Positions 17,219-33,539 of a stretch of DNA of 41,910 nt are shown in pieces. This DNA comes from Bacteroidales bacterium (lineage in GTDB: Bacteria; Bacteroidota; Bacteroidia; Bacteroidales; UBA932). Both the position numbers and the translations under genes were made by a program. The notes beneath the pieces were generated by a model that saw only the letters and a program-made list of their open reading frames with translations, did no database searches and was not told the DNA's origin. Each line of letters starts with the position of its first letter. Position 1 is the stretch's first letter. Location of the stretch: assembly GCA_024398105.1 (NCBI GenBank), contig JAKSJP010000022.1, forward strand, positions 1-41,910, given 5' to 3'.

Positions 17219-17239
17219 ACTTGTGTCTTGTGATTTAGA

Positions 17240-17635: not shown

Positions 17636-17656
17636 TTTTTCTGTCTTTTTGGGACC

Positions 17657-17739: not shown

Positions 17740-17750
17740 GTGTTATTCGA

Positions 17751-18020: not shown

Positions 18021-18035
18021 TGTATACGCTTGCTT

Positions 18036-18635
18036 TTAGTTGTTATGCTTCTTGAATGGAAGACCGAATGCCTTGAGAAGTGCGTAGCACTCTTCGTCGG
18101 TCTTTGCTGTTGTCACGAATGTGAGCTCCATTCCGTGGATCTTAGGGTTCTTGTCCATATCGATCTCAGGGAAGATGATCTGCTCCTTGAGGCCGAGTGT
18201 GTAGTTGCCCTGACCGTCCATCTTCTCAGAGATACCGTTGAAGTCACGGATACGTGGGAGAGATACGCGGATGAGCTTCTCGAGGAACTCATACATCTTG
18301 ACGTCACGGAGAGTAACCTTTGTTCCGATAGGCATGCCCTTACGGAGCTTGAAGTTAGAGATATCCTTCTTAGAGCTTGTAACTACAGCCTTCTGTCCTG
18401 CGATGAGTGAGAGCTCCTCTGCAGCCTCCTCAACGAGCTTCTTGTCACCTGTAGCGTCGCCGACACCCTCATTGATGGTGATCTTGACAAGCTTAGGGCA
18501 CTGCATTACAGTAGTGTAAGAGAACTGCTTCACGAGAGCAGGTACAATCTCTTCCTTGTATGTCTTCTTGAGTGTTGGAACGTATCCTTCTGGAAGCGCC
18601 ATTACCTCAACTGGTGCGTTATTCTTCTTTGCCAT
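18036..18635 (-). CDS. rplE: 50S ribosomal protein L5
   Basis: 199 aa, about 15-20 longer than most L5 because of an N-terminal extension ([20 protein letters not shown]). The core begins [30 protein letters not shown] and [20 protein letters not shown] are conserved. Binds 5S rRNA and P-site tRNA. No in-frame ATG nearer the core except the internal Met12, so the shorter start (18602) cannot be excluded. 2 bp after rplX. Confidence 0.96.
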
Positions 18636-18637
18636 AA

Positions 18638-18955
18638 TTACTTGATCTCCTCTCCTGACTTCTTAGCGATACGAACCTTCTTGCCGTCTACGGTCTTGTA
18701 ACCAACCTTTGTAGGCTTGTTGGTTGAAGGGTCGATAAGCTGTACATTTGAAATGTGGATAGCAGCCTCCTGCTCAACGATACCACCCTGAGGGTGCTGT
18801 GCGTTTGGCTTGGTGTGCTTCTTAACCATATTGATTCCCTCAATGACAATGCGGTCCTTCTCGCGGACAACCTCGAGTACCTTTCCGGTCTTGCCCTTGT
18901 CATTTCCAGCGTTCACATACACGGTGTCGCCTTTCTTAATGTGAAATTTCTTCAT
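18638..18955 (-). CDS. rplX: 50S ribosomal protein L24
   Basis: 105 aa with a KOW motif: [37 protein letters not shown], then [34 protein letters not shown]. Initiates 23S assembly. 12 bp after rplN. Confidence 0.98.
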
Positions 18956-18967
18956 GATTCTTGAATT

Positions 18968-19333
18968 TTAGAGGACCTCCGGTGCCAGTGAAACAACTTT
19001 CATATAATTCTCACGCAGCTCTCTGGCAACTGGGCCAAAGATACGTGTTCCACGAAGCTCACCTGCGTTGTTGAGAAGAACGCATGCGTTATCGTCGAAA
19101 CGGATGTATGAACCATCTGGTCTGCGGATCTCTTTCTTTGTGCGGACTACTACAGCCTTTGAGACTGAGCCCTTCTTAGCGTCACCACCAGGGATAGCGC
19201 TCTTAACTGCAACGACGATCTTGTCACCTACAGTAGCATAACGGTGGTGGGTACCTCCCAGAACGCGGATGCAGAGTACTTCCTTTGCACCGCTGTTATC
19301 AGCCACCTGTAAACGTGTTTCCTGCTGTATCAT
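18968..19333 (-). CDS. rplN: 50S ribosomal protein L14
   Basis: 121 aa. [27 protein letters not shown] is the L14 N-terminus, with [28 protein letters not shown] near the C-terminus. Forms part of an intersubunit bridge. 3 bp after rpsQ. Confidence 0.98.
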
Positions 19334-19336
19334 CTC

Positions 19337-19591
19337 TTACTTGACTTTTTCTACGATTTCTACTAATCTCCACCTCTTGGTCTTGCTGAGCGGACGTGTC
19401 TCCATGATACGTACTGTATCGCCCTCGCTGCACTCGTTCTTTGCATCCTCTGCAACGAACTTGGTGGTCTTCTTCACGAACTTGCCGTAAATTGGGTGCT
19501 TCTCTCTAGCCTCAGTTGCAACGACAATAGTCTTATCCATCTTGTTGCTGACTACAACACCGATTCTTTCCTTACGAAGATTTCTTTCCAT
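19337..19591 (-). CDS. rpsQ: 30S ribosomal protein S17
   Basis: 84 aa OB-fold protein. [40 protein letters not shown] and [29 protein letters not shown] are diagnostic. 19 bp after rpmC. Confidence 0.98.
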
Positions 19592-19610
19592 AAAGCTATC
19601 TCTCTTCTAA

Positions 19611-19808
19611 TTAGTTCTGTTCATTCTGCTTCTGAGCGAGGACTGTCATCATGCGAGCGATGTCGCGACGAAGCTTCTTGATCTCAGATGTGTTTTCCAA
19701 TGGAGAGACAGCATGGTTGATCTTCATTGTATCAAGGTTTGCCTTTTCTACTCCGATGCGGTCCTGCAGATCTGCAATGGACATTTCGCGTACTTCAGAA
19801 ATTTTCAT
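19611..19808 (-). CDS. rpmC: 50S ribosomal protein L29
   Basis: 65 aa, two-helix coiled hairpin. MKISEVREMSIADLQDRIGVEKANLDTMKINHAVSPLENTSEIKKLRRDIARMMTVL matches L29. Located at the tunnel exit. 20 bp after rplP. Confidence 0.96.
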   Translation of the reverse strand: MKISEVREMSIADLQDRIGVEKANLDTMKINHAVSPLENTSEIKKLRRDIARMMTVLAQKQNEQN

Positions 19809-19828
19809 TTGTTCTCTTCCATTAAATT

Positions 19829-20248
19829 TTATTCAACATAGTCCCTGCGAACGATGAACTTCGTAGCTACAGGAAGCTTGTGAGATGCAAGACGCATTGC
19901 CTCTCTTGCGATCTCGAGGGATACGCCCTCAGCCTCAAAGAGGATACGGCCTGGAGTGATAGGGCAGACAAATCCCTGAGGATCACCCTTACCCTTACCC
20001 ATACGGGTTGAAAGAGGCTTCTTGGTGATTGGCTTAGCAGGGAAGACCCTGATCCAGATCTGACCTTCACGGTTCATACGACGTGAGATTGCCTGACGAG
20101 CTGCCTCGATCTGCTGTGCTGTAAGCCAGCAGTTCTCAAGGTTCTTGAGACCGAAAGAACCGAAGGCGAGCTGGTTTCCTCTCTGCGAGTTACCTTTCAT
20201 GCGGCCCTTCTGTTCTCTTCTGAACTTGGTTTTCTTTGGCTGTAACAT
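19829..20248 (-). CDS. rplP: 50S ribosomal protein L16 (first gene of the split cluster)
   Basis: 139 aa from the ATG at 20248 ([20 protein letters not shown]), the usual L16 N-terminus. The frame is open to 20326, but those 26 extra codons lie in the leader and partly match no L16, so they are rejected. Conserved: [38 protein letters not shown] and [21 protein letters not shown]. In nearly all bacteria L16 directly follows rpsC; here rpsC is 10.7 kb away and L16 has its own promoter (20339-20346) and a leader of about 85 bases. Confidence 0.97.
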
Positions 20249-20338
20249 TGCTGTATTACTTTTAAATATTTTGCAAATTCTACCTAAATAATTGAGTTTC
20301 AGCTGGTTGGGCGTACTTGTCCCCAATTTTTAGGAATG

Positions 20339-20346
20339 CAAAGTTA
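20339..20346 (-). promoter_or_regulatory. -7 box of the rplP (L16-L17 operon) promoter
   Basis: Minus-strand TAACTTTG fits TAnnTTTG. A TTTTG lies about 17 bases further upstream, a little closer than the usual 19. The transcript would start near 20332 and run through 22 ribosomal and associated genes to the terminator at 9541-9574. It is direct support that the cut ribosomal cluster is transcribed from a new start. Confidence 0.75.
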
Positions 20347-20536
20347 CGAAAAAATTCGGAAAACAAAACATTTTTTACAAAATTTTTAACACTTTTTGAC
20401 ACAGATTTCTGATAGTCATCTCACGCATTTTCAGCGAGTTACGCACATTGTGCAAAAAAAGTTCGACGAATTTTCGACATCGGCTCGACATAGCTAAATG
20501 AGGCAAGGAAATTGCTGTTGAATGACAGAAAATAGT

Positions 20537-20544
20537 TAGATTTG
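20537..20544 (+). promoter_or_regulatory. -7 box of the DUF4294 gene promoter
   Basis: TAGATTTG fits TAnnTTTG and ends 8 bases before the ATG at 20553, implying a very short leader. Candidate TTG boxes lie 16 and 22 bases upstream (20518-20520, 20512-20514); neither has ideal spacing. The 304-bp gap 20249-20552 holds this promoter, the divergent rplP promoter and an AT-rich stretch, nothing else recognised. Confidence 0.55.
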
Positions 20545-20552
20545 CAATCACC

Positions 20553-21341
20553 ATGAACAAGGTCCTCCATATCATCTATGCGTGCGCGCTCGTGCTTGCC
20601 TGCTGTCTTCCGGCATCTGCCCAGACGGTCAGGGAGGAATCCAAGTTCGTCTACAAGATGCCCAAGGACGGCAACAACTACATGCGCTACCTCGTCGAGA
20701 ACGGGGACACCGTCTATGTCGCCACGATCAAGGCTGCAGTCAAGTACGCCAACGGAAGGGGACGCGACTGGCGCAAGGAGAACAGGATGGTCCACAACTT
20801 CGGCAAGACCTACCCCTACGCCCTCGAGGCGAAGAGGCTGATGGCCGAGGTCGACGCGACGATCGAGGGACAGAACCTCCAGAAGCGCAAGAGGGACAGG
20901 TATATCAACACCATACAGTCCGACCTTCTTGACAAATACGAGCCTGTCCTCAGGAACATGACCGTCACCCAGGGCAAGGTCCTCATCAAGCTGATCGGCA
21001 GAGAGACCGGACTCACCCCGTACGAGATCATCCATGACTACAAGAACGGCATGGCCGCAGGCACCTGGCAGGGCATAGCGAAGCTTTTCGGCGGCGACCT
21101 GAAGAAAGAGTACGACCCGAAGGGCGAGGACAGGATCCTCGAGGAACTTGTCAAGAAATGGGAGGCGGGCGAATACCCTATGCTGTACATGTCGATCTTC
21201 GGCCGCTATCCGGAGATCCCGGACGTGAACGCTAGGCCTGAAAAGAAGAGACAGTCAGACTCTGCCCGTCAAACACAGCGTAAGGAGAAGAATCCATCCA
21301 ATCCTTCAAAATCAGGAAATCAGCGCCGGAAGGCAAAGTAA
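20553..21341 (+). CDS. DUF4294 family exported protein
   Basis: 262 aa with a cleavable signal peptide (residues 1-23, ending LPASA-QT). The body carries NGDTVYVATIKAAVKYANGRGRDWRKENRMVHNFGKTYPYALEAKRL and DRYINTIQSDLLDKYEPVLRNMTVTQGKVLIKLIGRETG, the DUF4294 pattern restricted to Bacteroidetes. Function unknown; periplasmic or exported. The final 35 residues are a polar, basic, low-complexity tail (KKRQSDSARQTQRKEKNPSNPSKSGNQRRKAK-like) encoded entirely where the gene overlaps the 3' end of lpxH on the other strand (21232-21341). Confidence 0.85.
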   Translation: MNKVLHIIYACALVLACCLPASAQTVREESKFVYKMPKDGNNYMRYLVENGDTVYVATIKAAVKYANGRGRDWRKENRMVHNFGKTYPYALEAKRLMAEVDATIEGQNLQKRKRDRYINTIQSDLLDKYEPVLRNMTVTQGKVLIKLIGRETGLTPYEIIHDYKNGMAAGTWQGIAKLFGGDLKKEYDPKGEDRILEELVKKWEAGEYPMLYMSIFGRYPEIPDVNARPEKKRQSDSARQTQRKEKNPSNPSKSGNQRRKAK

Positions 21342-21975
21342 GACGCACGGAAGCGTGGAAATGGCCATAGACGAAATGGTCCACCTTCTGCTGCCTTGAA
21401 ACTTCCTCGGAATACTTATAGAGCGGCTCGTCCGCATCTCGGAAGACGTACTCCACGTTCTTCGCCAGACGGCTGTTCTTCGACCACCCGGTCCCGAGAC
21501 GGTAGGCCAGCCATGGATGGAGGCACGAGAACGCCCTCTGTAGGAACCGGTTATGGAACATCCAGCGCATCGCCTTGTAAGAACGCATTCCCTCGCCGAG
21601 ACCGTCACCATGGCCAAGATAGAAGCACCGGCCGTTGATCATGGTACCCTGGGGCTGCTCCGTCACTTCGATTCCGAGGCTCTGGAGATAGCTGTAGCAC
21701 CAGATGTCGTGGTTGCCGGGGATGAGATGGACCTTGACGCCTGCGTCGACAAGGTCTGTCAGAGCCGCAAGGACGCGGACATAGCCGCGCGGGACGACGT
21801 CACGGTACTCATACCAGAAATCCCAGATGTCGCCGAGCATCCAGAGAGCCTCTGTCTGCTGGGCCGGGATGGAGCGGAGAAAGGCCACGAAACGGGCCTC
21901 GCGGTCCGCCGGGTCCTTCACGTCGAGGCCGAGATGTACGTCTGAGACGAAATATGCCAAGCTGCGTCCAGCCAT
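21232..21975 (-). CDS. lpxH: UDP-2,3-diacylglucosamine diphosphatase (LpxH-type)
   Basis: 247 aa calcineurin-like phosphoesterase that makes lipid X in lipid A synthesis. Metal motifs in order: D12/H14 (SDVHLG), D49 (LGDIWDFW), N88/H89 (PGNHDIW), H122 (LGHGDG), H205 and H207 (YGHFH). Its C-terminal SPYAVFDGQSL is conserved in the Bacteroidetes family, which supports the reading into the overlap with the convergent DUF4294 gene. It begins 1 base after the uppP stop, so it is the last gene of ftsX-DUF3098-uppP-lpxH. Confidence 0.93.
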   Translation of the reverse strand: MAGRSLAYFVSDVHLGLDVKDPADREARFVAFLRSIPAQQTEALWMLGDIWDFWYEYRDVVPRGYVRVLAALTDLVDAGVKVHLIPGNHDIWCYSYLQSLGIEVTEQPQGTMINGRCFYLGHGDGLGEGMRSYKAMRWMFHNRFLQRAFSCLHPWLAYRLGTGWSKNSRLAKNVEYVFRDADEPLYKYSEEVSRQQKVDHFVYGHFHASVRLTLPSGADFLILKDWMDSSPYAVFDGQSLTVSSFQA

Positions 21976-21976
21976 T

Positions 21977-22804
21977 CTATCTGAGGAAAAGAAGGATCAC
22001 CACCGCTACGGCTGCGCAGTAGAGCGCGAACCATGTAAGCTTCGCTTTCTTCACGATAGCGACCATCGCCTTGCAGGCGAAGAGTCCTGAGAAGAAGGCG
22101 GCGAGAGCGCCTATGACAAGAGCGGCGGCGCCTACGCCTGGACCGGCTGCGGCCTCGCCTGTGGCCATGTCAAGAAGGTCGAGCATCTGCTCACCCACGA
22201 TAGGGACGAGGACCATGAGGAACGAGAACTGGGCCATCACCTCGCGCTTGACGCCGCAGATAAGACCTGTGGCGATGGTGGTGCCGCTACGCGAGAGACC
22301 TGGAGCCACAGCGAACGACTGGCCGAAGCCGACCACGAGGGCCTGCCAGAACGAGATGCCGTTCCTGTGGTTACCTACGCTCTCCTTGACGTTCTTTGCG
22401 AAGAAAGAGAACTTGTCGGAAAGGAAGAGCAGACAGGCGGTCACGAGGAGGCAGATGGCTACCGTCGTCAGGTCTTCGCCGAACAGGGCTTCAACCTGGT
22501 CCTTGAGCAGGAGACCGACGATGGCGATAGGTACCATGGACACGACAAGTTTGCAGACGTAGTCCGTCTCGTCGTTGTACCTGAACTTCAGAAGGCCCTG
22601 GAGAAGCTTCCAGATCGCGCCCCAGAAGACGACGACCGTACTGAGGACGGTCGCGAAATGTACCGCAACGGTGAAGTCGAGGAAACCCTCGGGGTCCGCG
22701 CCGAGCAGCTCGCGGAAGATCATGAGATGTCCACTGCTGCTGACCGGAAGGAATTCAGTAAGTCCCTGGACGATTCCAAGGATAAGTGCCTGCCACCAAT
22801 CCAT
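21977..22804 (-). CDS. uppP: Undecaprenyl-diphosphatase
   Basis: 275 aa polytopic membrane protein of the BacA/UppP family, which dephosphorylates undecaprenyl pyrophosphate to recycle the lipid carrier for peptidoglycan and O-antigen. Both catalytic motifs are intact: GLTEFLPVSSSGHL (14-27, with E17) and PGLSRSGTTIATG (168-180). About seven or eight hydrophobic helices. It carries a copy of GGTACCATGG antisense to the coding strand (22530-22539). 3 bp after the DUF3098 gene. Confidence 0.96.
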   Translation of the reverse strand: MDWWQALILGIVQGLTEFLPVSSSGHLMIFRELLGADPEGFLDFTVAVHFATVLSTVVVFWGAIWKLLQGLLKFRYNDETDYVCKLVVSMVPIAIVGLLLKDQVEALFGEDLTTVAICLLVTACLLFLSDKFSFFAKNVKESVGNHRNGISFWQALVVGFGQSFAVAPGLSRSGTTIATGLICGVKREVMAQFSFLMVLVPIVGEQMLDLLDMATGEAAAGPGVGAAALVIGALAAFFSGLFACKAMVAIVKKAKLTWFALYCAAVAVVILLFLR

Positions 22805-22807
22805 ATC

Positions 22808-23050
22808 CTACCTGTTTTTCTTGAAGAGGCCCATGATGGCCACTATTTCGATAATGATTCCGCAGATGATCACGACCGGAGCAGCCACGAGCCTCCTGAA
22901 GTCGAACATCTTCTGGCTGAAGACAGCCGGATCGTCGCTGCCGCCGCCCATGAGGAGGATATATCCTGCGATCATGACCAGAAGGCCGATCACCAGGAAC
23001 CTCAGGCCCTTGCGGGTCACGGGCATGTTTCCATTCTCTTTCTTTTCCAT
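22808..23050 (-). CDS. DUF3098 family small membrane protein
   Basis: 80 aa with two helices (about 17-34 and 55-75) separated by MGGGSDDPAVFSQKMFDFRRLVAAPVV, the DUF3098 signature (GGGSxDP...F.FRR..VAP). Found in Bacteroidetes between ftsX and uppP, as here. Function unknown; the neighbourhood suggests an envelope or division role. 4 bp after ftsX. Confidence 0.88.
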   Translation of the reverse strand: MEKKENGNMPVTRKGLRFLVIGLLVMIAGYILLMGGGSDDPAVFSQKMFDFRRLVAAPVVIICGIIIEIVAIMGLFKKNR

Positions 23051-23054
23051 AGTC

Positions 23055-23936
23055 CTAATAATATAATTCGTCCTTTCCGAGGGAGACGAGCCTGTTTACG
23101 ACAAGATAGGTGCTGAGCACACAGATGACGACACCCGCCACGAGTACGATGCCCATCACGAGGAGCAGCATCTCAAGCCTGAAGATCTCGAACAGCTGCA
23201 CGAACTGGGTCTTCACGAAGAAGAGCACTCCAAGAAGCATCAGGATGGCGATGAAGCCCGAGAAGAGTCCCATCAGGGCCGCCCTTGCGAGGAACGGTCC
23301 ACGGATGAAGGCGCGGGTCGCACCGACGAGCTTCATTGTATGGACGGTGAAGCGCTTGTCATAGAATCCAAGACGCATCGTATTGCCTATCAGCACGTAG
23401 GAGATGAACATCAGCAACGCGATGAAGATCGCGATCACCAGTGAGATCTTGCTGAGGTTCGCGTTCAGGGTATCGATCAGCGACTGCTGGTAGACGACCT
23501 CGTCGACGACGTCGAATCCCTCCATCAGACGCTTCTCGACCGCCTTTACCGCCTCCGGAGAGACGAAGTCGGCATTGAGCGTCAGGTTGACGGAGACTGG
23601 GATAGGCGAGGTCTCGAACACCTTGAGGAAATCCTCTCCGAGCATCTTGACCATCTCGGCCTCACCCCTTTCCCGGGACACGAACTCGGTGCTGTGGACA
23701 AAGTCCATGGTATCCAGCTGCTCAGTGAAGGCCATGGCATCCGCCTCCGACACTTCCGGCTTCATCATGACGCTGACGGTCATGTTCTCCTTGAAATAGT
23801 CGGACACGCTCTTGGTATTCACCAGGAGCATGCTTCCCACTCCCACGAGGAGCAGGACAAGCGATATGCTGACTACCGACGAAAGATACGCATTCGCCAG
23901 TCGTTTTCTGATTATTCTGTTTTCAGTTCTGGACAT
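23055..23936 (-). CDS. ftsX: Cell division protein FtsX (ABC transporter permease-like)
   Basis: 293 aa from the ATG at 23936. One N-terminal helix (LSSVVSISLVLLLVGVGSMLLV), a periplasmic domain to about residue 160, then three more helices ending LVMGIVLVAGVVICVLSTYLVV: the four-TM FtsX plan. FtsX with the ATPase FtsE controls cell-wall hydrolases at division; ftsE is not adjacent. A TTG at 23957 would add seven residues, but it overlaps the -7 promoter box (23955-23962), so it cannot be on the mRNA. Confidence 0.92.
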   Translation of the reverse strand: MSRTENRIIRKRLANAYLSSVVSISLVLLLVGVGSMLLVNTKSVSDYFKENMTVSVMMKPEVSEADAMAFTEQLDTMDFVHSTEFVSRERGEAEMVKMLGEDFLKVFETSPIPVSVNLTLNADFVSPEAVKAVEKRLMEGFDVVDEVVYQQSLIDTLNANLSKISLVIAIFIALLMFISYVLIGNTMRLGFYDKRFTVHTMKLVGATRAFIRGPFLARAALMGLFSGFIAILMLLGVLFFVKTQFVQLFEIFRLEMLLLVMGIVLVAGVVICVLSTYLVVNRLVSLGKDELYY

Positions 23937-23954
23937 ACTCCACCAAATTGACTC

Positions 23955-23962
23955 CAAAGATA
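23955..23962 (-). promoter_or_regulatory. -7 box of the ftsX-DUF3098-uppP-lpxH promoter
   Basis: Minus-strand TATCTTTG fits TAnnTTTG; a TTG lies 17 bases upstream (23980-23982). It fixes the ftsX start at 23936 rather than 23957. Confidence 0.65.
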
Positions 23963-23992
23963 GTGAAATATAAAAATATCAAAAATTTTTCT

Positions 23993-24000
23993 TAATTTTG
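23993..24000 (+). promoter_or_regulatory. -7 box of the GT5-like/DUF4270 promoter
   Basis: TAATTTTG fits TAnnTTTG, 29 bases before the ATG at 24030. No clear -33 TTG at the expected distance; the region is strongly AT-rich. Divergent from the ftsX promoter, 30 bases apart. Confidence 0.55.
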
Positions 24001-24029
24001 CATGTTATAAATATAGATAGGTAAAAAAT

Positions 24030-24845
24030 ATGGGAGAGACACCTAAAAAAGTACTTTTCGTCAATTCTGAGATATTCCCTTACCTTCCGGAAAGCCACGA
24101 GGCCAACATAGGAAGATACCTTCCACAGGGTATCCAGGAAAGAAAGAAGGAGATCCGATCATTCATGCCGAGATATGGTTGCATCAATGAAAGGAAGAAC
24201 CAGCTTCACGAAGTAATACGCCTTTCTGGAATCAATATCATCATCAACGAAGTCGACAGACCGCTTGTAATCAAGGTCGCATCAATATCCGCTGCCAGGA
24301 TGCAGGTCTATTTCATTGACAACGAGGACTATTTCCGCCGCAAGACTACCTTCAGGGACGAGGACGGCAACTTCTATGCGGACAACGCCGAGAGGGCCGT
24401 ATTCTTCGCAAGAGGAGTTCTCGAGACCGTCAAGAAGCTGCGTTGGGCTCCGGATATCATCCACTGCCACGGATGGATCTCCCACATCCTCCCTGTCTAT
24501 CTCAAGAAAGCATACAAGGACGACCCTATCTTCGCGTCAAGCAAAGTCGTCCTCTCACTCTACAACGATACTCCGGCCCAGTTCGCAGCTGACTTCCAGA
24601 ACCTGGCACGCTACGCAGGCGTAGAGGACAAGGACCTCGAGCTTCTGGCAGACCCTACTGGCATAAATCTTGCGAAAACAGCAGCACTGCAGAGCGACGG
24701 TATCATCCTTGCCGACCAGGACGTGGACAAGGAGATCGTCTCTTTCTGCGAAGGTCTTTCCACACCGCTCCTCAAGTACGATGTAAAGGCAATGGAGGAC
24801 GGCACCTGGATTGACGGGTATAACGCATTTTACGATCAGATTTAA
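24030..24845 (+). CDS. Standalone glycogen/starch-synthase (GT5) N-domain-like protein
   Basis: 271 aa, the size of the N-terminal half of GlgA only. It shows the fold landmarks: KVLFVNSEIFPYLPES at the start, MPRYGCINERKN, VYFIDNEDYFRRKTTFRDEDGNFYADNAERAVFFARGVLE, and WAPDIIHCHGWISHILPVYLK. However, the ADP-glucose motif K-x-G-G-L near the N-terminus is absent (the segment reads YLPESHEANIGRYLP), the HxHDW aspartate is glycine, and the C-terminal GT1-type half is missing. It is therefore unlikely to be a working glycogen synthase; families of this size are usually annotated as such in Bacteroidetes. It forms a two-gene unit with the DUF4270 lipoprotein, 5 bp downstream. Confidence 0.82.
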   Translation: MGETPKKVLFVNSEIFPYLPESHEANIGRYLPQGIQERKKEIRSFMPRYGCINERKNQLHEVIRLSGINIIINEVDRPLVIKVASISAARMQVYFIDNEDYFRRKTTFRDEDGNFYADNAERAVFFARGVLETVKKLRWAPDIIHCHGWISHILPVYLKKAYKDDPIFASSKVVLSLYNDTPAQFAADFQNLARYAGVEDKDLELLADPTGINLAKTAALQSDGIILADQDVDKEIVSFCEGLSTPLLKYDVKAMEDGTWIDGYNAFYDQI

Positions 24846-24850
24846 CTAAG

Positions 24851-26521
24851 ATGAAATTCAGATATCTGTGCGCGGCATGCCTCGGGCTCTTCGGCCTGGC
24901 ATCATGCGTCGAGGTTGACCAGCGAGTAGGTCAGGGCTACCTGGCTACCAACCAGCAGTACGAGATATATACTGCGACATTCCCGATCGAAGACATCAGG
25001 ATGGACTATCCTGAGGAGCTTTCGTCATACAGCAGCTACAGGTTCACCGTAGGCGCCGTGAAGGACGACCTCTTCGGTGTATCTACCAGGTCCACCGCAT
25101 TCACCCTCGTGCCTATCGCGAAGGAACTCGATTTCGGAAAGCCTGGAACCCAGGTGTTCAAGCAGTTCCACTTCACCGCTCCTATCGACACTCTCTCATA
25201 TGCCGACGAGAGCCAGAGACGTATCTTCCAGAACATCAACGTCTATGAAGTCGATGAGTATGTAGACATCACAAAGAGCACCCCTGAGGTGAAATACAGC
25301 AAGAAGAGAATCACACGAGGAGTTCCTGTGTACGAAGGTGCAGACTCGCTTTCTTTCGACTTCACCGAGGAGTTCGCGCTCAAGTACATGAACATCAAGA
25401 AGGAAGACCTCGATTCGCTGAACCATTATTCAAAGAAGTACCCTGGCATCGTCCTTACAGCCGACGTACCTAAGGAGAACGGCGGACGTATCAACATGTT
25501 CAAGCTTCCTCTTGACGTTGCCCACGGATACATCTACGGCAGCTACGCAGTGCTCAGTTTCAGAGCCGAGTACGACAAGGGTCCTGTAGACACCGCTTTC
25601 TACTTCTCCCTCGGACCTCTCGACCTCTACGACTTTGCCAGCGTGACCAGCACCACCGTAGCCAAGTACCCACAGGCTGCATACAACATGTCCACAAGCG
25701 AAAGCTCTTCACTCAAGGGACAGGCAGGAGAGGAATACTGGTTCGAAGGTGGAAAGGGCCTCAAGCCGGTGATCTCGGCGGCAGGTATCAGAGAGCAGAT
25801 GATCTCCGAGATCTCCAAGCATGGAGACCCAAGCGAGATCGTGATAAGCAAGGCAAGCATCAAGCTTCCTTTCGTGTTCCCGGACAACTACAAGGACATG
25901 ATCTACTATCCTACCAAGATCAGCCCTACATGCCGTATCGCGAACGACGATGACAACATCGCATACGCCAACATCACAGACTCCAGCGTATCTACAGAGA
26001 ACCAGGGAGAGGTCAACCGTTCTACCTGCGTCTACGCTCCGGACATCTCACACCATGCCCAGCAGATCATATCGCTCAAGGACATGGACAAGATCAGCAA
26101 CTACGACATCTGGTTCCTCCCAATAGCAGTCGAGAACACCACCTCTGCCGCATCTGAGGCCGAGGCTGCGGACAACTACAACTCTGCGATGAACCAGCTC
26201 TCATATCAGCAGTATATGAGCAACATGTACGGCTATGGTGGCTATGGCGGCTACGGCGGATATGGAATGGGCGGTTACGGCTATGGCATGGGAGGCTACG
26301 GTTATGGCGGATACGGCGGTTACGGTGGCTATGGCTACGGATACGGCAGCAACTACTATTACTATGCGATGATGCAGAGCATGGCTGGCCAGTATACCGG
26401 TGCGGAAAGCGAGTCACTTCTCGACCTAAACCGCTTCTACAAGGCTAAGTTCGTCGGACCTGCTGCAAGCAAGAACGTTCCGACAATGTCTATCACATAC
26501 GCAGTGCCTGTAAAGGACTAA
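24851..26521 (+). CDS. DUF4270 family lipoprotein with a Gly-Tyr-rich repeat
   Basis: 556 aa. Lipoprotein signal MKFRYLCAACLGLFGLASC with the lipidated cysteine at 19. The body has the DUF4270 layout: VDQRVGQGYLATNQQYEIYTATFPIEDIRMDYP, then VGAVKDDLFGVSTRSTAFTLVP. From about residue 459 to 506 (26225-26370) it holds a run of GYG/GGY/GMGGY units followed by SNYYYYAMM, a low-complexity insert not expected of the family; after it the normal C-terminus resumes (LLDLNRFYKAKFVGPAASKNVPTMSITYAVPVKD). Probably anchored in the outer membrane; function unknown. Confidence 0.85.
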   Translation: MKFRYLCAACLGLFGLASCVEVDQRVGQGYLATNQQYEIYTATFPIEDIRMDYPEELSSYSSYRFTVGAVKDDLFGVSTRSTAFTLVPIAKELDFGKPGTQVFKQFHFTAPIDTLSYADESQRRIFQNINVYEVDEYVDITKSTPEVKYSKKRITRGVPVYEGADSLSFDFTEEFALKYMNIKKEDLDSLNHYSKKYPGIVLTADVPKENGGRINMFKLPLDVAHGYIYGSYAVLSFRAEYDKGPVDTAFYFSLGPLDLYDFASVTSTTVAKYPQAAYNMSTSESSSLKGQAGEEYWFEGGKGLKPVISAAGIREQMISEISKHGDPSEIVISKASIKLPFVFPDNYKDMIYYPTKISPTCRIANDDDNIAYANITDSSVSTENQGEVNRSTCVYAPDISHHAQQIISLKDMDKISNYDIWFLPIAVENTTSAASEAEAADNYNSAMNQLSYQQYMSNMYGYGGYGGYGGYGMGGYGYGMGGYGYGGYGGYGGYGYGYGSNYYYYAMMQSMAGQYTGAESESLLDLNRFYKAKFVGPAASKNVPTMSITYAVPVKD

Positions 26522-26541
26522 GCTCCGCAGCTGAAAATCAC

Positions 26542-26570
26542 AAGAGGATGACCCGAGTCATCCTCTTTTT
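26542..26570 (+). terminator. Rho-independent terminator after the DUF4270 gene
   Basis: Stem AAGAGGATGAC / GTCATCCTCTT with a CCGA-type loop and a following T run, 20 bases after the stop codon. Confidence 0.9.
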
Positions 26571-26578
26571 GCGTCATC

Positions 26579-26720
26579 TTGCCTCCGGACGTCGGCTGTT
26601 CTCCTCCGGAGACCTTCCGCGCTTCGCGCTGCATCCCTCCCACTGCGCTGCGCTTGCGGGCCCCTCCCTCTGACACGGCCGAGGGTGGCCATGGGTCTCC
26701 CGGAGGAGACAGCCCACGTC
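26579..26720. repeat. Intergenic inverted-repeat element (REP/MITE-like), copy 2
   Basis: Left end GACGTCGGCTGTTCTCCTCC (from 26589), right end complement GACGTGGGCTGTCTCCTCCG (to 26720): terminal inverted repeats of about 28 bases with few mismatches. The left 58 bases match copy 1 (7421-7480) at nearly every position; the right end also matches (CGGAGGAGACAGCC). The interior is diverged. Like copy 1 it lies between convergent gene ends and is flanked by terminator hairpins. Short open frames across it are translation noise. Confidence 0.82.
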
Positions 26721-26730
26721 CATATACGAA

Positions 26731-26759
26731 GAAAGCGACTGATAAAATCAGTCGCTTTC
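26731..26759 (-). terminator. Rho-independent terminator after acpP
   Basis: Perfect stem GAAAGCGACTGAT / ATCAGTCGCTTTC with a 3-base loop (26744-26746), about 27 bases downstream of the acpP stop on the minus strand. The stem itself supplies the T-rich 3' side. Confidence 0.75.
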
Positions 26760-26785
26760 GTTATTTCCTTTCTAGGTAAGGAGAA

Positions 26786-27025
26786 TTACTGCTTGTCAGC
26801 GATGTACTTGATAGCGTCGCCTACAGTTGCGATACCTGTTGCATCCTCATCTGGAATCTTAACGCCGAATACGCGCTCAAGCTCCATGATAAGCTCAACT
26901 GTGTCAAGAGAATCTGCGCCGAGATCGTTAGTGAAGTTAGCTGACTCAGTAACCTCTGACTCCTCTACACCAAGCTTGTCAACGATGATTTCCTTTACCT
27001 GCTTTACAATTTCTTCCTGTGTCAT
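26786..27025 (-). CDS. acpP: Acyl carrier protein
   Basis: 79 aa acidic four-helix protein. The phosphopantetheine serine is S39 in [16 protein letters not shown]. Carries growing acyl chains in fatty acid and lipid A synthesis. It stands alone between its own promoter and a terminator; the usual Bacteroidetes partner fabF is not adjacent. Confidence 0.97.
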
Positions 27026-27093
27026 GATAAAAGTAATGTTTATGTTAATAATACACTTAATTTCAATGTTCGCCCTTTTGGGGAATAACGATG

Positions 27094-27124
27094 CAAAGTA
27101 AACAAAATTCTCCGTTAAATCAAA
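27094..27124 (-). promoter_or_regulatory. acpP promoter
   Basis: Minus-strand -33 TTTG at 27121-27124, 19-base spacer counted from the TTG, -7 TTACTTTG at 27094-27101 (one mismatch to TAnnTTTG). The leader would be about 60 bases. The rest of the 132-bp gap 27026-27157 shows nothing else. Confidence 0.6.
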
Positions 27125-27157
27125 GAATTCGGGCCAAAAACAACCACTTATGGAGAA

Positions 27158-27949
27158 TTAGCAGCAACTTCCATGCTGCGGCATATCTGCTTCATCGTGC
27201 TTGCTCAGATGGAGCCATATGCGCAGACCGTTGATCGAATTGAGCAGATAGAATACATACTTGATGACCATCACCACCGTATAGCTGCTCGCCTCCGCGC
27301 TGAGAAGCCTGTTGGTCCAGAGCAGGATCGAGAAGACATTCACGAGATTCCAGATATACCACTGGTCCGCGAATGCGAGGGACATAAGGATCTGGCCGAT
27401 GATGTTGAGGACCACCACAGCGGCGTCAAGTACAAGCTTGGCATTGTCTATTCCGGCGATCTTTCCGGCTGCCATCTGGGCCTTGTCGATCCAGAAGAGT
27501 ATGCCATAGGCCACGAGCGTTCCCACAAATAGAGCCGCTCCGACATAGCCCCACTGCTTCCTGTCAAGCCTTCTTGCCCTTACCTTCCTGACCTCTCCGC
27601 CCTCTGCCGAGAACGATGCACCTCTCTTCTTCCACTGCCAGAAGCCTACGAACTGCATAGGGAGGAAGTAGAGCACATGCTGGAGGAACTGTCCCATGTT
27701 GCCGCTGTCGAGGTTGGCATATGAACAGATGAGCACGTCGAGGACGCCGAAGAAGAACGTCCAGATGTTTCCGTTTGCGCTGAGCACGGTGTTCACCACG
27801 CCCATGATAGCGCCAAGCGAGATCACGATCTGCTTTACGATCTGCACGTCGCCGTCCTGGATCTCAAGGATGTCCACGAAAAGCACGGCGGCCGCCATTC
27901 CGATAAGAATGAAAAGGTTGAACCAGAAATTGAATCCCTTATTCTTCAT
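27158..27949 (-). CDS. pnuC: PnuC-family nicotinamide riboside transporter
   Basis: 263 aa, with seven or so hydrophobic helices. Family marks are YFLPMQFVGFWQWKKRG and the motif AFADQWYIWNLVNVFSILLW near the C-terminus, including the W..W..N substrate-site pattern. PnuC proteins pass vitamin precursors (nicotinamide riboside, or thiamin for PnuT). No thiamin riboswitch was seen and the gene overlaps uvrC by 11 bp, so the substrate is open; nicotinamide riboside is the default. Ends with a cysteine-rich tip (HGSCC). Confidence 0.87.
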   Translation of the reverse strand: MKNKGFNFWFNLFILIGMAAAVLFVDILEIQDGDVQIVKQIVISLGAIMGVVNTVLSANGNIWTFFFGVLDVLICSYANLDSGNMGQFLQHVLYFLPMQFVGFWQWKKRGASFSAEGGEVRKVRARRLDRKQWGYVGAALFVGTLVAYGILFWIDKAQMAAGKIAGIDNAKLVLDAAVVVLNIIGQILMSLAFADQWYIWNLVNVFSILLWTNRLLSAEASSYTVVMVIKYVFYLLNSINGLRIWLHLSKHDEADMPQHGSCC

Positions 27950-29777
27950 GTTGCAAATTTAACTCATTCTGCTGATTATCCGAAATCATGTTCAGATGTT
28001 CATGGATCCTGCGGGCCAGGCCTTGGTTGCCAAGGAACCGGGTCAGGTCTTCCAACGGGGCGGCGGCCACACGGGCCACGCTGCCATAATGCATGATCAG
28101 GCGCTGCTCGATCTTGTCTCCAACGCCCTTGACCTCCTTGAGAGCAGAGGCTATCTGTGCCTTGCTGCGGAGGTTGCGGTGGAAGGTGATACCGAAGCGG
28201 TGGGCTTCGTCACGTATCTGCTGGAGAAGCTTGAGCGCCTGCGAATTCCTGTCGATGAAAAGAGGGTATGGGTCTCCGACCCTGATGACCTCCTCGAGCC
28301 TCTTGGCGAGGCCTATCACCGTAAGTTTCTCTGTAAGTCCGAGCTCGGCCAACGCCTGGTAGGCGAAGTCAAGCTGGCCTTTTCCACCGTCGATCACTAT
28401 CAGCTGAGGGAGATCCTCCGGATTCTCCTCAAGCATACGTGAGTAGCGGCGGTTGACGACTTCCTTCATGGAAGCATAGTCATTCGCTCCGATGACCGTC
28501 TTGATCTTGAAACGGCGGTAGTCGCTCTTTGACGGCTGGCCGTTACGGAAGACGACACACGAAGCGACAGGGTTTGTACCCTGGATGTTGGAGTTGTCGA
28601 AGCACTCCATATGGACCGGAAGAACTGGCATTCCTATGGCCTTCTGGAGCTCCTCAAGCACTTTCTGATGGAATTCCTCAGGGTTGGTGTGTTCCCTCTG
28701 GCGGAGCGAATGGAAACGCATTTCCTTGGCGTTGCGCATGCTCAGTTCGAGAAGCGCGAGCTTGTCTCCCGCCTTAGGGATGCGGAACTCCACTCCGTCC
28801 AGCTCGACGTCCGGAAGAAAAGGCACGATGACCTCCTTCGAAAGGTCGCCGAACTTGCTCTCTATCTCGGCGACGAAAGTGCTCATCAATGACGCAGGTT
28901 CCTCCTCGATATGCATCTTGAAGCCAAGGTTCAGAGACTGGATGATCGCACCTCCGCGTATCCTGAGGAAGTTTCCGAAAGCCTCTCCCTCGTCCGATAC
29001 GATAGAGAAGACATCCACGTCTCCTACGCTCGCGTTCATGATTATGGACTTGCTGTAGTGCTTCTCCAGGGACTGCATCTTGTACTTGTAGACCGCGGCC
29101 TGCTCGAAGTCGAGCTCGGCGGCAGCCTTCTCCATAAGGGAGCGGTAGTGCTGGATCATAGCCTTGCCGCCACCCTTGAGCATCGATACGATCTCCTCGA
29201 TGTTGGCATTGTACTCCTCCTTGGAGATGGCTCCGGCACAGCAGCCCTTGCAGCGTCCTATATGGAACTTCAGACATGGGCGGAACTTGCCTCGGAGTAT
29301 GGCCTCGGAAGTGATCTTCAGGTTGCAGGTCCTCAGCGGATAGAGGTCCTGGAACATCTCCAGCAGGCTGTGGGCATGGATGACGCTGCTGTATGGACCG
29401 AAGTAGCGCGAGCCGTTCTTGACGACGCGGCGGGTCATGAACACCTTCGGGAAGTCATCTCCCGTGACACATATCCATGGATATGTCTTGGAGTCCTTGA
29501 GCAGGATGTTGTACTTCGGCTTGTACTGCTTGATCAGGTTGTTCTCCAGGAGAAGGGCGTCAGCCTCGCTGTCGACGACGCTGTACTGGGCGTCGGCGAT
29601 CTTCGAGACGAGCACGCGGGTCTTGACATTGAGCCTCTCGGGCGGCACGAAATACTGCGCCACCCTCTTGTGGAGGTCCTTTGCCTTGCCCACATAAATC
29701 ACATTCCCCTCAGAGTCATAGTATCTATAGACTCCCGGGGAATGAGGAAACAACGATATCTTCTCCTTGACTGTCAA
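27939..29777 (-). CDS. uvrC: UvrABC nuclease subunit C
   Basis: 612 aa. The GIY-YIG nuclease domain (about 10-90) reads FPHSPGVYRYYDSEGNVIYVGKAKDLHKRVAQYF; a UVR domain (about 200-235) reads LMEKAAAELDFEQAAVYKYKMQ; the RNase-H-like second nuclease contains ECFDNSNIQG; HhH motifs close the protein (LKEVKGVGDKIEQRLI). It makes both incisions in nucleotide excision repair. The only possible start is TTG at 29777, since a stop (29793-29795) lies just upstream with no ATG between. It overlaps pnuC by 11 bp and follows the lipoprotein gene by 10 bp. Confidence 0.95.
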   Translation of the reverse strand: MTVKEKISLFPHSPGVYRYYDSEGNVIYVGKAKDLHKRVAQYFVPPERLNVKTRVLVSKIADAQYSVVDSEADALLLENNLIKQYKPKYNILLKDSKTYPWICVTGDDFPKVFMTRRVVKNGSRYFGPYSSVIHAHSLLEMFQDLYPLRTCNLKITSEAILRGKFRPCLKFHIGRCKGCCAGAISKEEYNANIEEIVSMLKGGGKAMIQHYRSLMEKAAAELDFEQAAVYKYKMQSLEKHYSKSIIMNASVGDVDVFSIVSDEGEAFGNFLRIRGGAIIQSLNLGFKMHIEEEPASLMSTFVAEIESKFGDLSKEVIVPFLPDVELDGVEFRIPKAGDKLALLELSMRNAKEMRFHSLRQREHTNPEEFHQKVLEELQKAIGMPVLPVHMECFDNSNIQGTNPVASCVVFRNGQPSKSDYRRFKIKTVIGANDYASMKEVVNRRYSRMLEENPEDLPQLIVIDGGKGQLDFAYQALAELGLTEKLTVIGLAKRLEEVIRVGDPYPLFIDRNSQALKLLQQIRDEAHRFGITFHRNLRSKAQIASALKEVKGVGDKIEQRLIMHYGSVARVAAAPLEDLTRFLGNQGLARRIHEHLNMISDNQQNELNLQHEE

Positions 29778-29787
29778 GGTATGATGC

Positions 29788-30849
29788 TTATTTTACGTAC
29801 TTGGCAACTGTCTCACCGATCTGGGCGCCACGGAGGTCCCTCTTGAGGATGGTTCCGTCAGGGCCGAAGAGGATTATGTGAGGAATTCCGTCGATGCCGT
29901 AGATCGAAGTAGGGATTTCCTGGGCATTGATGATCTGGTTCCAAGGAATTCCAAGTTCCTCGGCCGACTTGAGAGTTGCCTCTGCATCATCCCAGACTGC
30001 TACGCTGAGAATATCGAACTGGTCACCATGGTACTTCTCATAGACCTGCTTCAGATTAGGAACTTCAGCCTTGCATGGAGCGCACCAGCTCGCCCAGAAA
30101 TCTACAAGGACATACTTGCCCTTGCCGACATAATCTGAGAACTTCTGGATATTCCCATGGTAATTCACCTCGAAATCGGTGAACATCTTTCCTTCTGCCG
30201 TCGCAGAGGATGCGTTGAGGCTGGAAAGGAGTGCTGACACGAACTCGGTTTCCTGAAGGTCAGGACTGAGGGTCTCGATGATCTCAAGCAGTTCTGAAGA
30301 CTCAAGACCATTATATATGTTGCTCAGAGCGACAAGTCCCACAGCATTGTCCCTGTTGGACTTAATGGCCTTCTTGGAGATGTCCAGCAGCTTGATGCTC
30401 ACTTTTTCATAAAGATCTCCCATCTTGGCAGACTTTTCAACATCGCTCTCAGTCTCCACGTCGATCTTGTGGGCAGCGTCAACATATTCCTTCTGGAGCG
30501 CATTCACTGCCTTGTTGAACTTTGAATACGCAGCAGCGATACCCTTCGCAGAAGACTCGGCGACCGGCTGCTCCTCACGGAGATCGATGGAAATCTCAGA
30601 CCCGTCGGAAACGAAGCTGACTGAACTGGTATAGTAAACCACACTTGAGACATCCAGCGTCTCCACCGGAAGCTCCAGGACAGCGACTCCGCCCTGAGGA
30701 TAGACGACAGTGTCAACATCGGCACAGATGACACGGATGTGGTCTGAATCACCTTCTGTATAGCATGTCAGGCGTGTCCTGTCAGAAGTCTGGGAACATG
30801 CTGCCAAAGCAAACGCTGCAGCAAGTATTGAGATAACTCTGAATTTCAT
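29788..30849 (-). CDS. TlpA-like thioredoxin-domain lipoprotein
   Basis: 353 aa. Lipoprotein signal with lipobox LAAC, cysteine at 18. Residues 20-100 form a beta-rich segment resembling DUF4369; 100-215 is helical and charged; 225-353 is a thioredoxin/TlpA domain with the active site WCAPC (C256, C259) and the cis-proline in GIDGIPHIILFGPDG. Such proteins are periplasmic thiol-disulfide reductases (cytochrome c maturation or general). First gene of tlpA-uvrC-pnuC. The start is 15 bases after the ribosomal terminator, and no good promoter box was found. Confidence 0.9.
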   Translation of the reverse strand: MKFRVISILAAAFALAACSQTSDRTRLTCYTEGDSDHIRVICADVDTVVYPQGGVAVLELPVETLDVSSVVYYTSSVSFVSDGSEISIDLREEQPVAESSAKGIAAAYSKFNKAVNALQKEYVDAAHKIDVETESDVEKSAKMGDLYEKVSIKLLDISKKAIKSNRDNAVGLVALSNIYNGLESSELLEIIETLSPDLQETEFVSALLSSLNASSATAEGKMFTDFEVNYHGNIQKFSDYVGKGKYVLVDFWASWCAPCKAEVPNLKQVYEKYHGDQFDILSVAVWDDAEATLKSAEELGIPWNQIINAQEIPTSIYGIDGIPHIILFGPDGTILKRDLRGAQIGETVAKYVK

Positions 30850-30863
30850 TTATTCCAGTTTTG

Positions 30864-30897
30864 AAAAAAGGCCTGCTGCGGTTACCCGAAGCAGGCC
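30864..30897 (-). terminator. Rho-independent terminator after rpsC
   Basis: Minus-strand stem GGCCTGCTTCGG / CCGCAGCAGGCC-type (30870-30897; near-perfect with a small loop) followed by TTTTTTC at 30864-30869. It lies 23 bases after the rpsC stop and shows that the rplC-rpsC transcript ends here. Confidence 0.92.
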
Positions 30898-30920
30898 GTA
30901 TTATTGTTTGTCGCGAAGTA

Positions 30921-31682
30921 TTACTCAGCCTTCTCGCCTGCATTTCTGCGGCCACGGCCACCACGACGACCGTTACGGTCACCGCCACGTCCGTTGTGGC
31001 CACCCTGCTGTGGCTGTGCTGCTGAAGCAGCGATGCCAGCGTTAGGTGAAAGATCCTTCTTTCCGTAAACTTCACCGTTGCAGATCCATACCTTGATACC
31101 GAGGCAACCTACCTTGGTGTTAGCTACTGCGAGAGCGTAGTCGATATCAGCACGGAATGTGTGGAGAGGTGTACGACCTTCCTTGAACATTTCTGAGCGA
31201 GCCATTTCAGCACCGCCTACACGGCCGCTGATCTGAACCTTGATACCTTCTGCACCAACTCTCATAGCTGTAGCGACAGCCATCTTGATTGCTCTTCTGT
31301 AAGATACACGACCCTCGATCTGACGAGCGATAGAGTCAGCTACGATGCGAGCGTCAACCTCAGGCTTTCTTACCTCGTAGATGTTGATCTGAACATCCTT
31401 CTTGGTAACCTTCTTGAGCTCGTCCTTGAGCTTGTCTACTTCCTGTCCACCCTTACCGATGATGACACCTGGTCTTGCAGCCTGGATTGTCACGGTGATG
31501 AGCTTAAGGGTTCTCTCGATCACAATCTTAGAGATGCTTGCCTTTGAAAGGCGAGCCTCGAGATACTGACGGATCTTGTAGTCCTCAGCGATCTTCTCTG
31601 CGTAGTTACCACCACACCAGTTAGAGTCCCAACCACGGGTGATACCGATTCTGTTGCTGATTGGATTTGTTTTCTGTCCCAT
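30921..31682 (-). CDS. rpsC: 30S ribosomal protein S3
   Basis: 253 aa. N-terminus [24 protein letters not shown] domain with [20 protein letters not shown]-terminal domain [31 protein letters not shown]. Beyond residue 220 is an Arg/Gly-rich tail with [18 protein letters not shown]3 helps form the mRNA entry pore. Here it is the last gene of the transcript, instead of preceding rplP. Confidence 0.98.
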
Positions 31683-31684
31683 AA

Positions 31685-32101
31685 TTATGCCTCCACTGTT
31701 GGTTTCTTAACGTCAAGAATAACGGTTACATGGTTTGAACGCTTGCGGATACGGCCGGCTCTACCCTGAGGGCAAGGACGGATTCTCTTAAGTGTACGAC
31801 CCTCATCAACCATGATGGTCTTTACATATACGTTACCGTTATCAAGCTCTTTGCTGCTGTCAGGATTCTTTGCCTCCCAGTTAGCGATTGCGCTGCGGAG
31901 AAGCTTCTCAAGACGGATTGAAGGTGCCTTCTTTGAGAATTTAAGAAGATCGAGTGCGCGGTTAACTTCCACACCTCTTACTGTATCTGCAACAAGACGC
32001 ATCTTGCGTGGAGATGTAGGAACGTCATTCAGCTTAGCAATAGCTGTGGCCTTCTTAGCCTCCTTGAGGCTCTCTGCCATAAGTTTCTTACGCTTTCCCA
32101 T
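31685..32101 (-). CDS. rplV: 50S ribosomal protein L22
   Basis: 138 aa. Core [34 protein letters not shown] and the C-terminal hairpin [37 protein letters not shown], which lines the exit tunnel. 2 bp after rpsS, 2 bp before rpsC. Confidence 0.98.
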
Positions 32102-32103
32102 AA

Positions 32104-32376
32104 TTATCTCTTATTGTTACCTGAATGACCTCTAAATGTACGTGTAGGGGCGAATTCGCCGAGTTTGTGACCTACCATGTTCTCAGTTACGTATACCGGA
32201 ATGAACTTGTTTCCGTTATGAACTGCGATCGTGTGGCCTACGAAGTCAGGAGAGATCATGCTTGCGCGTGACCATGTCTTGACTACTTCCTTCTTCTTGC
32301 TACCATCATTCATAGCAAGAATTCTTTTCTCCAGAGCTTCCTGGATATATGGACCTTTTCTTAATGAACGACTCAT
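32104..32376 (-). CDS. rpsS: 30S ribosomal protein S19
   Basis: 90 aa. [19 protein letters not shown] and [44 protein letters not shown] are diagnostic. Small-subunit head protein. 21 bp after rplB. Confidence 0.98.
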
Positions 32377-32397
32377 AATCTCTAAAGTTTTATTCCG

Positions 32398-33222
32398 TTA
32401 TTTCTTTCTTCTTTCAATGATGAACTTATTTGAAGTTGCCTTAGGATTACGTGTCTTGTATCCCTTTGCAGGAAGTCCCTTACGTGAACGTGGGTGACCA
32501 CCGGAAGCACGACCTTCACCACCACCCATAGGGTGATCTACCGGGTTCATTACAACACCACGGTTGTGAGGGCGACGACCGAGCCAGCGGCTACGACCTG
32601 CCTTACCTGACGACTCAAGATTGTGTTCAGGATTTGAAACTGTACCAACTGTAGCGCGGCAAGCAACGAGTACCATTCTTGTCTCACCTGAAGGGAGACG
32701 AAGGATAGCGTAGTTGCCCTCACGTGCTGCGAGCTGTGCGAATGTACCTGCTGAACGTGCCATTGCAGCACCCTGACCAGGACGGAGCTCGATGTTGTGT
32801 ACGAGAGTACCTACTGGAATATCACTGAGAGGAAGAGCGTTACCGAGCTCAGGAGCAACACCTGCGCCTGAAGCGATCACCTGGCCGACCTTGAGGCCGT
32901 TAGGTGCGATGATATATCTCTTCTCGCCGTCTTCATATTCTACGAGTGCGATACGTGCGCTACGGTTTGGATCGTACTCGATTGTCAATACCTTTGCAGA
33001 GCAAGTATCCTTATCACGAAGGAAGTCGATGATACGGTACATTCTCTTGTGGCCACCACCGATGTAACGTACGGTCATCTGACCGGTGTTGTTACGACCG
33101 CCGGAGCTCTTAAGAGGCTCAAGCAATGCCTTATGAGGCTTCTTGCAGGTGATTTCGTCGAAAGAGCTGATCACCTTATTTCTCTGACCAGGGGTAACTG
33201 GTTTGAACTTTCTTACTGCCAT
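32398..33222 (-). CDS. rplB: 50S ribosomal protein L2
   Basis: 274 aa. [25 protein letters not shown] at the N-terminus; conserved catalytic-region loop [40 protein letters not shown]. Needed for subunit association and peptidyl transfer. 14 bp after rplW. Confidence 0.98.
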
Positions 33223-33236
33223 TGCCTAATTCCTCC

Positions 33237-33527: not shown

Positions 33528-33539
33528 CTCTCAAACTGA

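Follow-up and report, generated by a model that had tools for sequence, protein, structure and literature searches.

The window analysed here, a 41,910-nucleotide stretch of DNA from a Bacteroidales bacterium (positions 1 to 41,910 of contig JAKSJP010000022.1, assembly GCA_024398105.1), carries the ribosomal-protein genes of the S10-spc-alpha array in two halves. According to an earlier description, no longer gene array is conserved among bacterial genomes (PMC2837039). We found that it is cut twice inside the S10 operon and that the same two cuts are common to 19 genera, which form one clade. The intact operon runs in the order rpsJ-rplC-rplD-rplW-rplB-rpsS-rplV-rpsC-rplP-rpmC-rpsQ. In the window both the step from rpsC to rplP and the step from rpsJ to rplC are missing: rpsC and rplP lie on the same strand with 10,672 bases between them, and a divergent cdaA-mutS2 pair occupies the place upstream of rplC where rpsL-rpsG-fusA-rpsJ is expected. 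The rpsJ gene of this genome is found on another contig (C35), together with rpsL-rpsG-fusA. With rpsJ there and rplP far from rpsC, it is the block from rplC to rpsC that has left the array. A first-pass annotation of the window had correctly placed rpsC and rplP 10.7 kb apart on one strand. It took this as a single break in one genome and overlooked the second break, the true extent of the moved unit and its occurrence throughout a clade.

The explanation that we consider well supported, though short of certain, is an ancestral double cut with rebuilt signals and later drift of the block. The str-S10-spc-alpha array would have been cut twice inside the S10 operon in an ancestor common to 19 of the 25 genera sampled, such that rplC-rplD-rplW-rplB-rpsS-rplV-rpsC departed as a block, rpsJ remained with rpsL-rpsG-fusA, and rplP-rpmC-rpsQ remained with spc-alpha. 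The cut ends would then have become normal operon ends, with a sigma-A type promoter and a short leader at rplC and at rplP and an intrinsic terminator after rpsC. The block would have gone on moving after the cut; its position 10.7 kb upstream of rplP in the genus of the window is taken as secondary. Co-regulation of the pieces in trans is a probable further part of this explanation.

Distribution and phylogeny of the two breaks

We searched for rplP, rpsC and rpsJ in the same 149 genomes from 25 genera, most of them drafts or metagenome-assembled genomes, which constitute the family sample. The first-pass annotation had suggested comparing rpsC-rplP adjacency among relatives; this comparison divided the family into 19 split and six joined genera. 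Within the split genera (113 genomes) the two genes were adjacent in none of the 100 scoreable genomes. They were proven apart in 79, either on one contig (16 genomes) or on different contigs with the interior flank shown (63); a further 21 genomes had them on different contigs without interior-flank proof, and 13 had no match for one or both genes. Each split genus included at least one genome proven apart. In the six intact genera (36 genomes) adjacency was observed in 32 of 32 scoreable genomes, four having no match. Outside the family, the genes were joined in 132 of 132 scoreable genomes of the phylum (138 searched, of which five had no match and one was the genome of the window itself). 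An order-level search with a joined query returned one match spanning both genes in at least 103 of 295 genomes among the matches listed, five of the 103 being family members and the other genomes unscored; the counts were taken from the phylum searches instead.

At the second joint, none of the 94 genomes of the split genera that could be scored has rpsJ beside the block (77 on different contigs, 17 apart on the same contig; missing in 19). In the intact genera it lies beside the block in 25 of 36 genomes, and in two more (G047 and G076) the contigs end inside an intact block; of the rest, G038 was at contig ends and not scored, five had no match and three, all of genus g20, are open at this joint. 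The moved unit itself is constant: the identical seven-gene set from rplC to rpsC was present in 20 of 20 representative split rpsC loci. As a separate observation, genome G051 of genus g15 gave two rpsJ matches (C18:954-1238 and C2:166654-166938), which may reflect a duplication or contamination.

A phylogeny built on six proteins encoded in the moved block (54 sequences, 1131 columns, ultrafast bootstrap) recovered all split genera as monophyletic with a bootstrap of 100, while the intact genera g24, g9, g8, g21, g7 and g20 were placed outside the split clade and inside the family. 'Candidatus Coprenecus merdigallinarum' (L128) falls within the split clade, and 'Candidatus Minthomonas equi' (L125) has an rpsC without rplP behind it. 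Both Coprenecus and Minthomonas have been placed in GTDB family UBA932 (PMC8035907, PMC8957277). From these named relatives we take the sampled family to be UBA932.

The distance between the halves is variable. All 11 genomes of the window's genus (g1) are proven apart, five with a same-strand gap of 10.7-18.2 kb and six with the genes on different contigs. From this composition we regard the close same-strand layout as a genus trait that is probably secondary. One g2 genome has the genes 21.4 kb apart on the same strand, and the gene content of the g1 and g2 gaps differs. Ten further genomes carry both genes on one contig at distances of 47-454 kb, five of them having the genes on opposite strands. 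An orientation-keeping translocation, as the first-pass annotation had proposed, thus describes the window's genus and the g2 genome and fails elsewhere.

Predicted signals at the new operon ends

Sigma-A promoters of Bacteroidota carry a TTG at position -33, upstream of the -7 box. The box itself has been described as TAnnTTTG (PMC9723704). The heads of both rplC and rplP match this promoter type, with box and TTG (Table 1). All promoter and terminator tests were carried out without locus L140, a contig end that was left unassigned, and with identical sequences counted once. For rplP, a -7 box with the upstream TTG within 200 bases was present in 22 of 22 split loci, where dinucleotide shuffles gave an expectation of 0.9, versus 0 of 8 intact loci of the family and 0 of 30 outside it (2 of these 30 had the -7 box alone). 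For rplC the pair was detected in 48 of 49 split loci (1.2 expected from shuffles), with the box in most of them 59-72 bases before the start codon, and in none of 8 intact family loci (one with a -7 box alone) or 24 loci outside. The rplC locus L082 has the -7 box and no scored -33 TTG.

At the other end of the block, 66 of 70 split loci passed a strict test for an intrinsic terminator downstream of rpsC (1.2 expected); no intact locus did, whether in the family (0 of 8) or outside it (0 of 30). This test supersedes a lenient one (68 of 70 split loci, 34 expected; 13 of 39 intact loci, 2.8 expected). The comparisons show a gain of predicted promoters and terminators at the cut ends. The first-pass annotation had already described the terminator behind rpsC and the rplP promoter box, both at the positions of Table 1, and had read the break as settled rather than accidental and the halves as controlled through separate promoters. 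These readings hold, and both halves have ends of their own.

The rplC promoter also carries a more specific motif. The motif TAYMTTTGCARYCC gave 27 matches in the genome of the window and 0 for the reversed control. Sixteen of the 27 sites precede a transfer RNA (tRNA) gene as predicted by ARAGORN, five precede a ribosomal-protein gene (rpsL, rplC, rpsF, rplS and rplU, the last three identified by eye), and six are unassigned or stand before other genes; the rplC match is at C15:34855-34868, C15 being the window. As the rplC promoter carries this tRNA and ribosomal-protein motif, co-regulation of the pieces has probably persisted, acting in trans through promoter class and growth rate and no longer in cis through one long transcript. 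Independently of this, the motif (27 places, L256-L282) looks usable as a signature of tRNA and ribosomal-protein promoters in the lineage.

In addition, 32 of 48 rplC leaders (0.7 expected) and 8 of 15 rpsL leaders (0.1 expected) from split loci have a perfect stem near the 5' end that scores at or above the threshold; the stem sequence varies, e.g. CCCGC/GCGGG, CCCAC/GTGGG or CCTGCG/CGCAGG. When 34 of the 49 split rplC leaders were aligned with MAFFT, the loop lengths varied and the 3' arms were unaligned; a per-sequence stem test was used instead. Rfam leader families gave no match in the window at gathering score. We tentatively propose, at somewhat less than even confidence, that the operon has become a regulon: a single double cut in the ancestor would have left three units, each standing on its own promoter, and rpsL and rplC would have in common a stable-RNA-type motif and a 5' hairpin whose pairing is kept though its sequence varies. 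If this were true, ribosomal-protein dosage would be balanced in trans in at least 19 genera, through promoter class, sensing of guanosine tetraphosphate (ppGpp) or nucleotides, or leader RNA.

A proposed single ancestral event and its alternatives

The flanking genes agree with a common origin. Representatives of 13 of the 19 split genera have DUF4294 no farther than about 6 kb from rplP, and in 11 of those 13 lpxH-uppP-ftsX-GT5 stands beside it. On the block side, a serine hydrolase family (F25) occurs within three genes of rpsC in 7 of 19 genera, four of which also have genes resembling aroC and aroA by eye in the vicinity. Overall the genes upstream of rplP are widely conserved, DUF4294 and usually the stretch from lpxH to 'DUF4270' adjoining rplP across much of the clade, and the surroundings of the block vary from genus to genus. 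The arrangement pnuC-uvrC-TlpA in the interval position was seen in the window's genus and close relatives; the full window order rpsC-TlpA-uvrC-pnuC-'DUF4270'-GT5-ftsX-DUF3098-uppP-lpxH-DUF4294 recurs in 9 of 46 named split loci; and cdaA stands upstream of rplC in 13 of 49 split-type named loci, in the window's orientation in nine and flipped in four. Distribution, clade and flanks together point to a single ancestral event. At the edges of the block we also noticed flipped segments, namely cdaA-mutS2 as a small inversion (L096, L102, L111, L113) and parts of TlpA-uvrC-pnuC (L104, L108, L114); beside rplP, the stretch from DUF4294 to 'DUF4270' is flipped in G084 (L231).

Several observations weigh against an ancestral double cut with rebuilt signals and co-regulation. 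The tree is limited to proteins that the moved block encodes. In the contigs read, the common DUF4294 and F25 flanks are missing from g14, g23 and g25, which form the earliest split branch. For rpsJ, the strict test gave a terminator in just 3 of 20 split loci (0.6 expected) and in none of the intact ones (0 of 8 in the family, 0 of 25 outside), and a perfect leader stem was present in just 3 of 22 rplP leaders (0.5 expected). The rplP promoter of the window's genome (TAACTTTGCATTCC) departs from the motif TAYMTTTGCARYCC. Finally, in three g20 genomes (G081, G093, G136) rpsJ is apart from rplC with rpsC and rplP still joined, which shows that the rpsJ|rplC joint can open alone and more than once. 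The view that no partial state exists was therefore rejected: of six genomes of intact genera with rpsJ on another contig, three proved truly open. This makes the ancestral double cut slightly less probable and separate openings slightly more so. Because of the missing flanks in g14, g23 and g25 and the one-joint opening in g20, we infer the single event and do not count it among the observations.

In these three genomes no -7 box was found within 260 bases of rplC. A pair of small genes precedes rplC on its own strand in G081 and G136; in G093 pairs of this kind come after rpsJ. The pairs at the open joint (L283 3912-5010, L285 6811-7891, L290 274-2947) look alike, occur repeatedly in G093, and encode proteins of about 140-150 and 220-227 amino acids that appear membrane-like by eye. 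Two intact genera carry an extra small gene, of family F59, between rpsN and rpsH (L226 12804-13307, L222 5635-6183), from which we conclude that the array is loosening there too.

Among the alternatives, separate and repeated opening of the joints in an easily rearranging family, with the clade pattern reflecting recurrent loss, is the most probable but still unlikely. It draws on the independent opening in g20, on the block surroundings that differ between most genera and on the small inversions at the block edges. It would have to account for two identical cut points in all 19 genera, for their union in one clade with full bootstrap, for flanks common to 13 (DUF4294) and 7 (F25) of these genera, and for the fact that no family genome scored has the rpsC|rplP joint alone open. 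A local event in the window's species, in which eleven genes were inserted or one half was translocated, agrees with the preserved order and strand of the halves at 10.7 kb. It is refuted as the origin and very improbable, since all 11 genomes of the genus are apart, scoreable genomes of 18 further genera show no adjacency, and other genera have part of the gap genes upstream of rplP while rpsC is elsewhere; it may describe the genus-specific spacing.

Slightly less probable still are origin-symmetric inversions that parted the pieces and kept them near the origin on the leading strand. Such inversions would fit genus g11, where all 9 genomes that carry the rpsJ unit and the rpsC block on one contig have them divergent, with about 30-63 kb in between. 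In G077, the one genome sampled for this, GC skew is positive on both sides of the rpsJ-rpsC interval without a switch, and dnaA is about 1 Mb away, both of which speak against it. Misassembly or a binning error was a natural concern for a window that is one contig (C15) of a 48-contig draft (2.43 Mb, 91.8% complete), and the first-pass annotation had advised checking for it and had named a second intact copy of the junction as evidence against the split. It is refuted, with a practically negligible probability: of 80 rpsC loci from named, separately assembled genomes, 46 had at least 1.5 kb behind rpsC without rplP (of the others, 30 were joined and 4 broke off with the contig), and the split is also seen in three one-contig genomes, with rpsC and rplP about 155 kb (G077), 274 kb (G010) and 442 kb (G003, opposite strands) apart. 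In the window's genome rpsC and rplP occur once each.

A reconstruction by a single inversion with reciprocal junctions was tried and rejected. In a search of six intact family genomes and eight one-contig outgroup genomes, every DUF4294 gene detected was either separated from ftsX-uppP by 26 kb or more or placed on a different contig (G121 gave no DUF4294). The rplP neighbourhood must therefore have been assembled by several moves, and no one inversion can be named.

Gene content of the window and comparison with other dispersed clusters

The features of the locus are collected in Table 1. Of the names that the first-pass annotation had given to the eleven genes between the halves, nearly all were retained: Pfam and NCBIfam back DUF4294, uppP (BacA), DUF3098, ftsX, GT5, acpP, pnuC and the thioredoxin-like (TlpA-like) gene, and uvrC was also confirmed. 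The lpxH-like gene encodes a metallophosphatase whose similarity to lpxH stays below the cut-off, and the 'DUF4270' protein had no Pfam or NCBIfam match at an E-value of 0.001. The latter has a Gly-Tyr-rich repeat tract close to its C-terminus.

Table 1. Positions of genes and predicted signals in the window
Feature	Position	Strand	Remarks
Detached S10 block	30921..34798	-	seven genes
rplC	34175-34798	-	detached S10 block
rplD	33540-34169	-	detached S10 block
rplW	33237-33527	-	detached S10 block
rplB	32398-33222	-	detached S10 block
rpsS	32104-32376	-	detached S10 block
rplV	31685-32101	-	detached S10 block
rpsC	30921-31682	-	last gene of detached S10 block
Predicted rplC promoter	34861..34890	-	-7 box TACCTTTG (34861-34868), TTG about 20 bases upstream
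Putative 5'-terminal stem-loop of rplC leader	34839..34857	-	stem TCCGC/GCGGA; score 9, threshold 10
Predicted intrinsic terminator behind rpsC	30864..30897	-	GGCCTGCTTCGGGTAACCGCAGCAGGCC TTTTTT
Interval between halves	20249..30920	both	eleven genes
DUF4294		+	interval
lpxH-like, uppP, DUF3098, ftsX		-	interval
GT5		+	interval
'DUF4270'	24851-26521	+	interval
acpP	26786-27025	-	interval
pnuC, uvrC, TlpA-like		-	interval
Predicted rplP promoter, -7 box	20339..20346	-	TAACTTTG; 98 bases before start codon
spc-alpha half	9597..20248	-	complete including small genes, named by eye from proteins; order rplP, rpmC, rpsQ, rplN, rplX, rplE, rpsN, rpsH, rplF, rplR, rpsE, rpmD, rplO, secY, map, infA, rpmJ, rpsM, rpsK, rpsD, rpoA, rplQ
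rplP	19829-20248	-	spc-alpha half
rpmC	19611-19808	-	spc-alpha half
rpmD	15550-15732	-	spc-alpha half
infA	12700-12918	-	spc-alpha half
rpmJ	12570-12686	-	spc-alpha half

Contig C35 and the window have an exact 55-base end in common, across which the frame of an argD-like gene continues. This overlap probably places the str unit on the strand of rplQ, some 17.5 kb past that gene. On C35 we also observed a tyrosine-recombinase-like gene, identified by eye (L228 3962-5362), which points toward rpsJ and ends about 290 bases from the rpsJ 3' end; it is a possible mobile element beside the other cut end.

The split provides a natural experiment on the tree: two intra-operon cuts with joined sister genera for comparison, and the gain of a terminator and two predicted promoters. 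In rumen and gut bacteria it opens to testing whether selection on the array acts on co-transcription, dosage or co-assembly. It can also serve as a rare-genomic-change marker for a clade known mostly from metagenomes. A survey of this ribosomal-protein cluster was reportedly made by Coenye and Vandamme in 2005. In the open-access literature searched we found no published account of this split. Disconnection of the cluster as such is a known kind of event.

The closest parallel is the study of Brandis 2021 (PMC8046335), which as presented covers Gammaproteobacteria and Bacilli and not Bacteroidota. There the cluster is described as dismantled in two steps, with few genes inserted at a junction and full disconnection thereafter. 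Both cases have in common a rare disconnection with further dispersal in the descendants, such that new neighbourhoods date the event on the tree, and the gene insertion reported there at the str-S10 joint resembles our three g20 genomes. According to that account, 75 of 115 rearrangements (65%) fall between operons and leave these whole, whereas both cuts described here interrupt the S10 operon, one following its first gene and the other preceding its final three. In Aquifex aeolicus (PMC3879981) pieces of str, S10, spc and alpha are likewise reported as dispersed while relatives are compact; that case concerns operon-scale shuffling in one species, unlike the 19-genus clade with two fixed intra-operon cuts and a traceable gain of predicted promoters. 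The relocation of S10-spc-alpha in Vibrio cholerae (PMC4395360) likewise deals with moving this locus, but there it was relocated whole by design, whereas here it was cut in the course of evolution.

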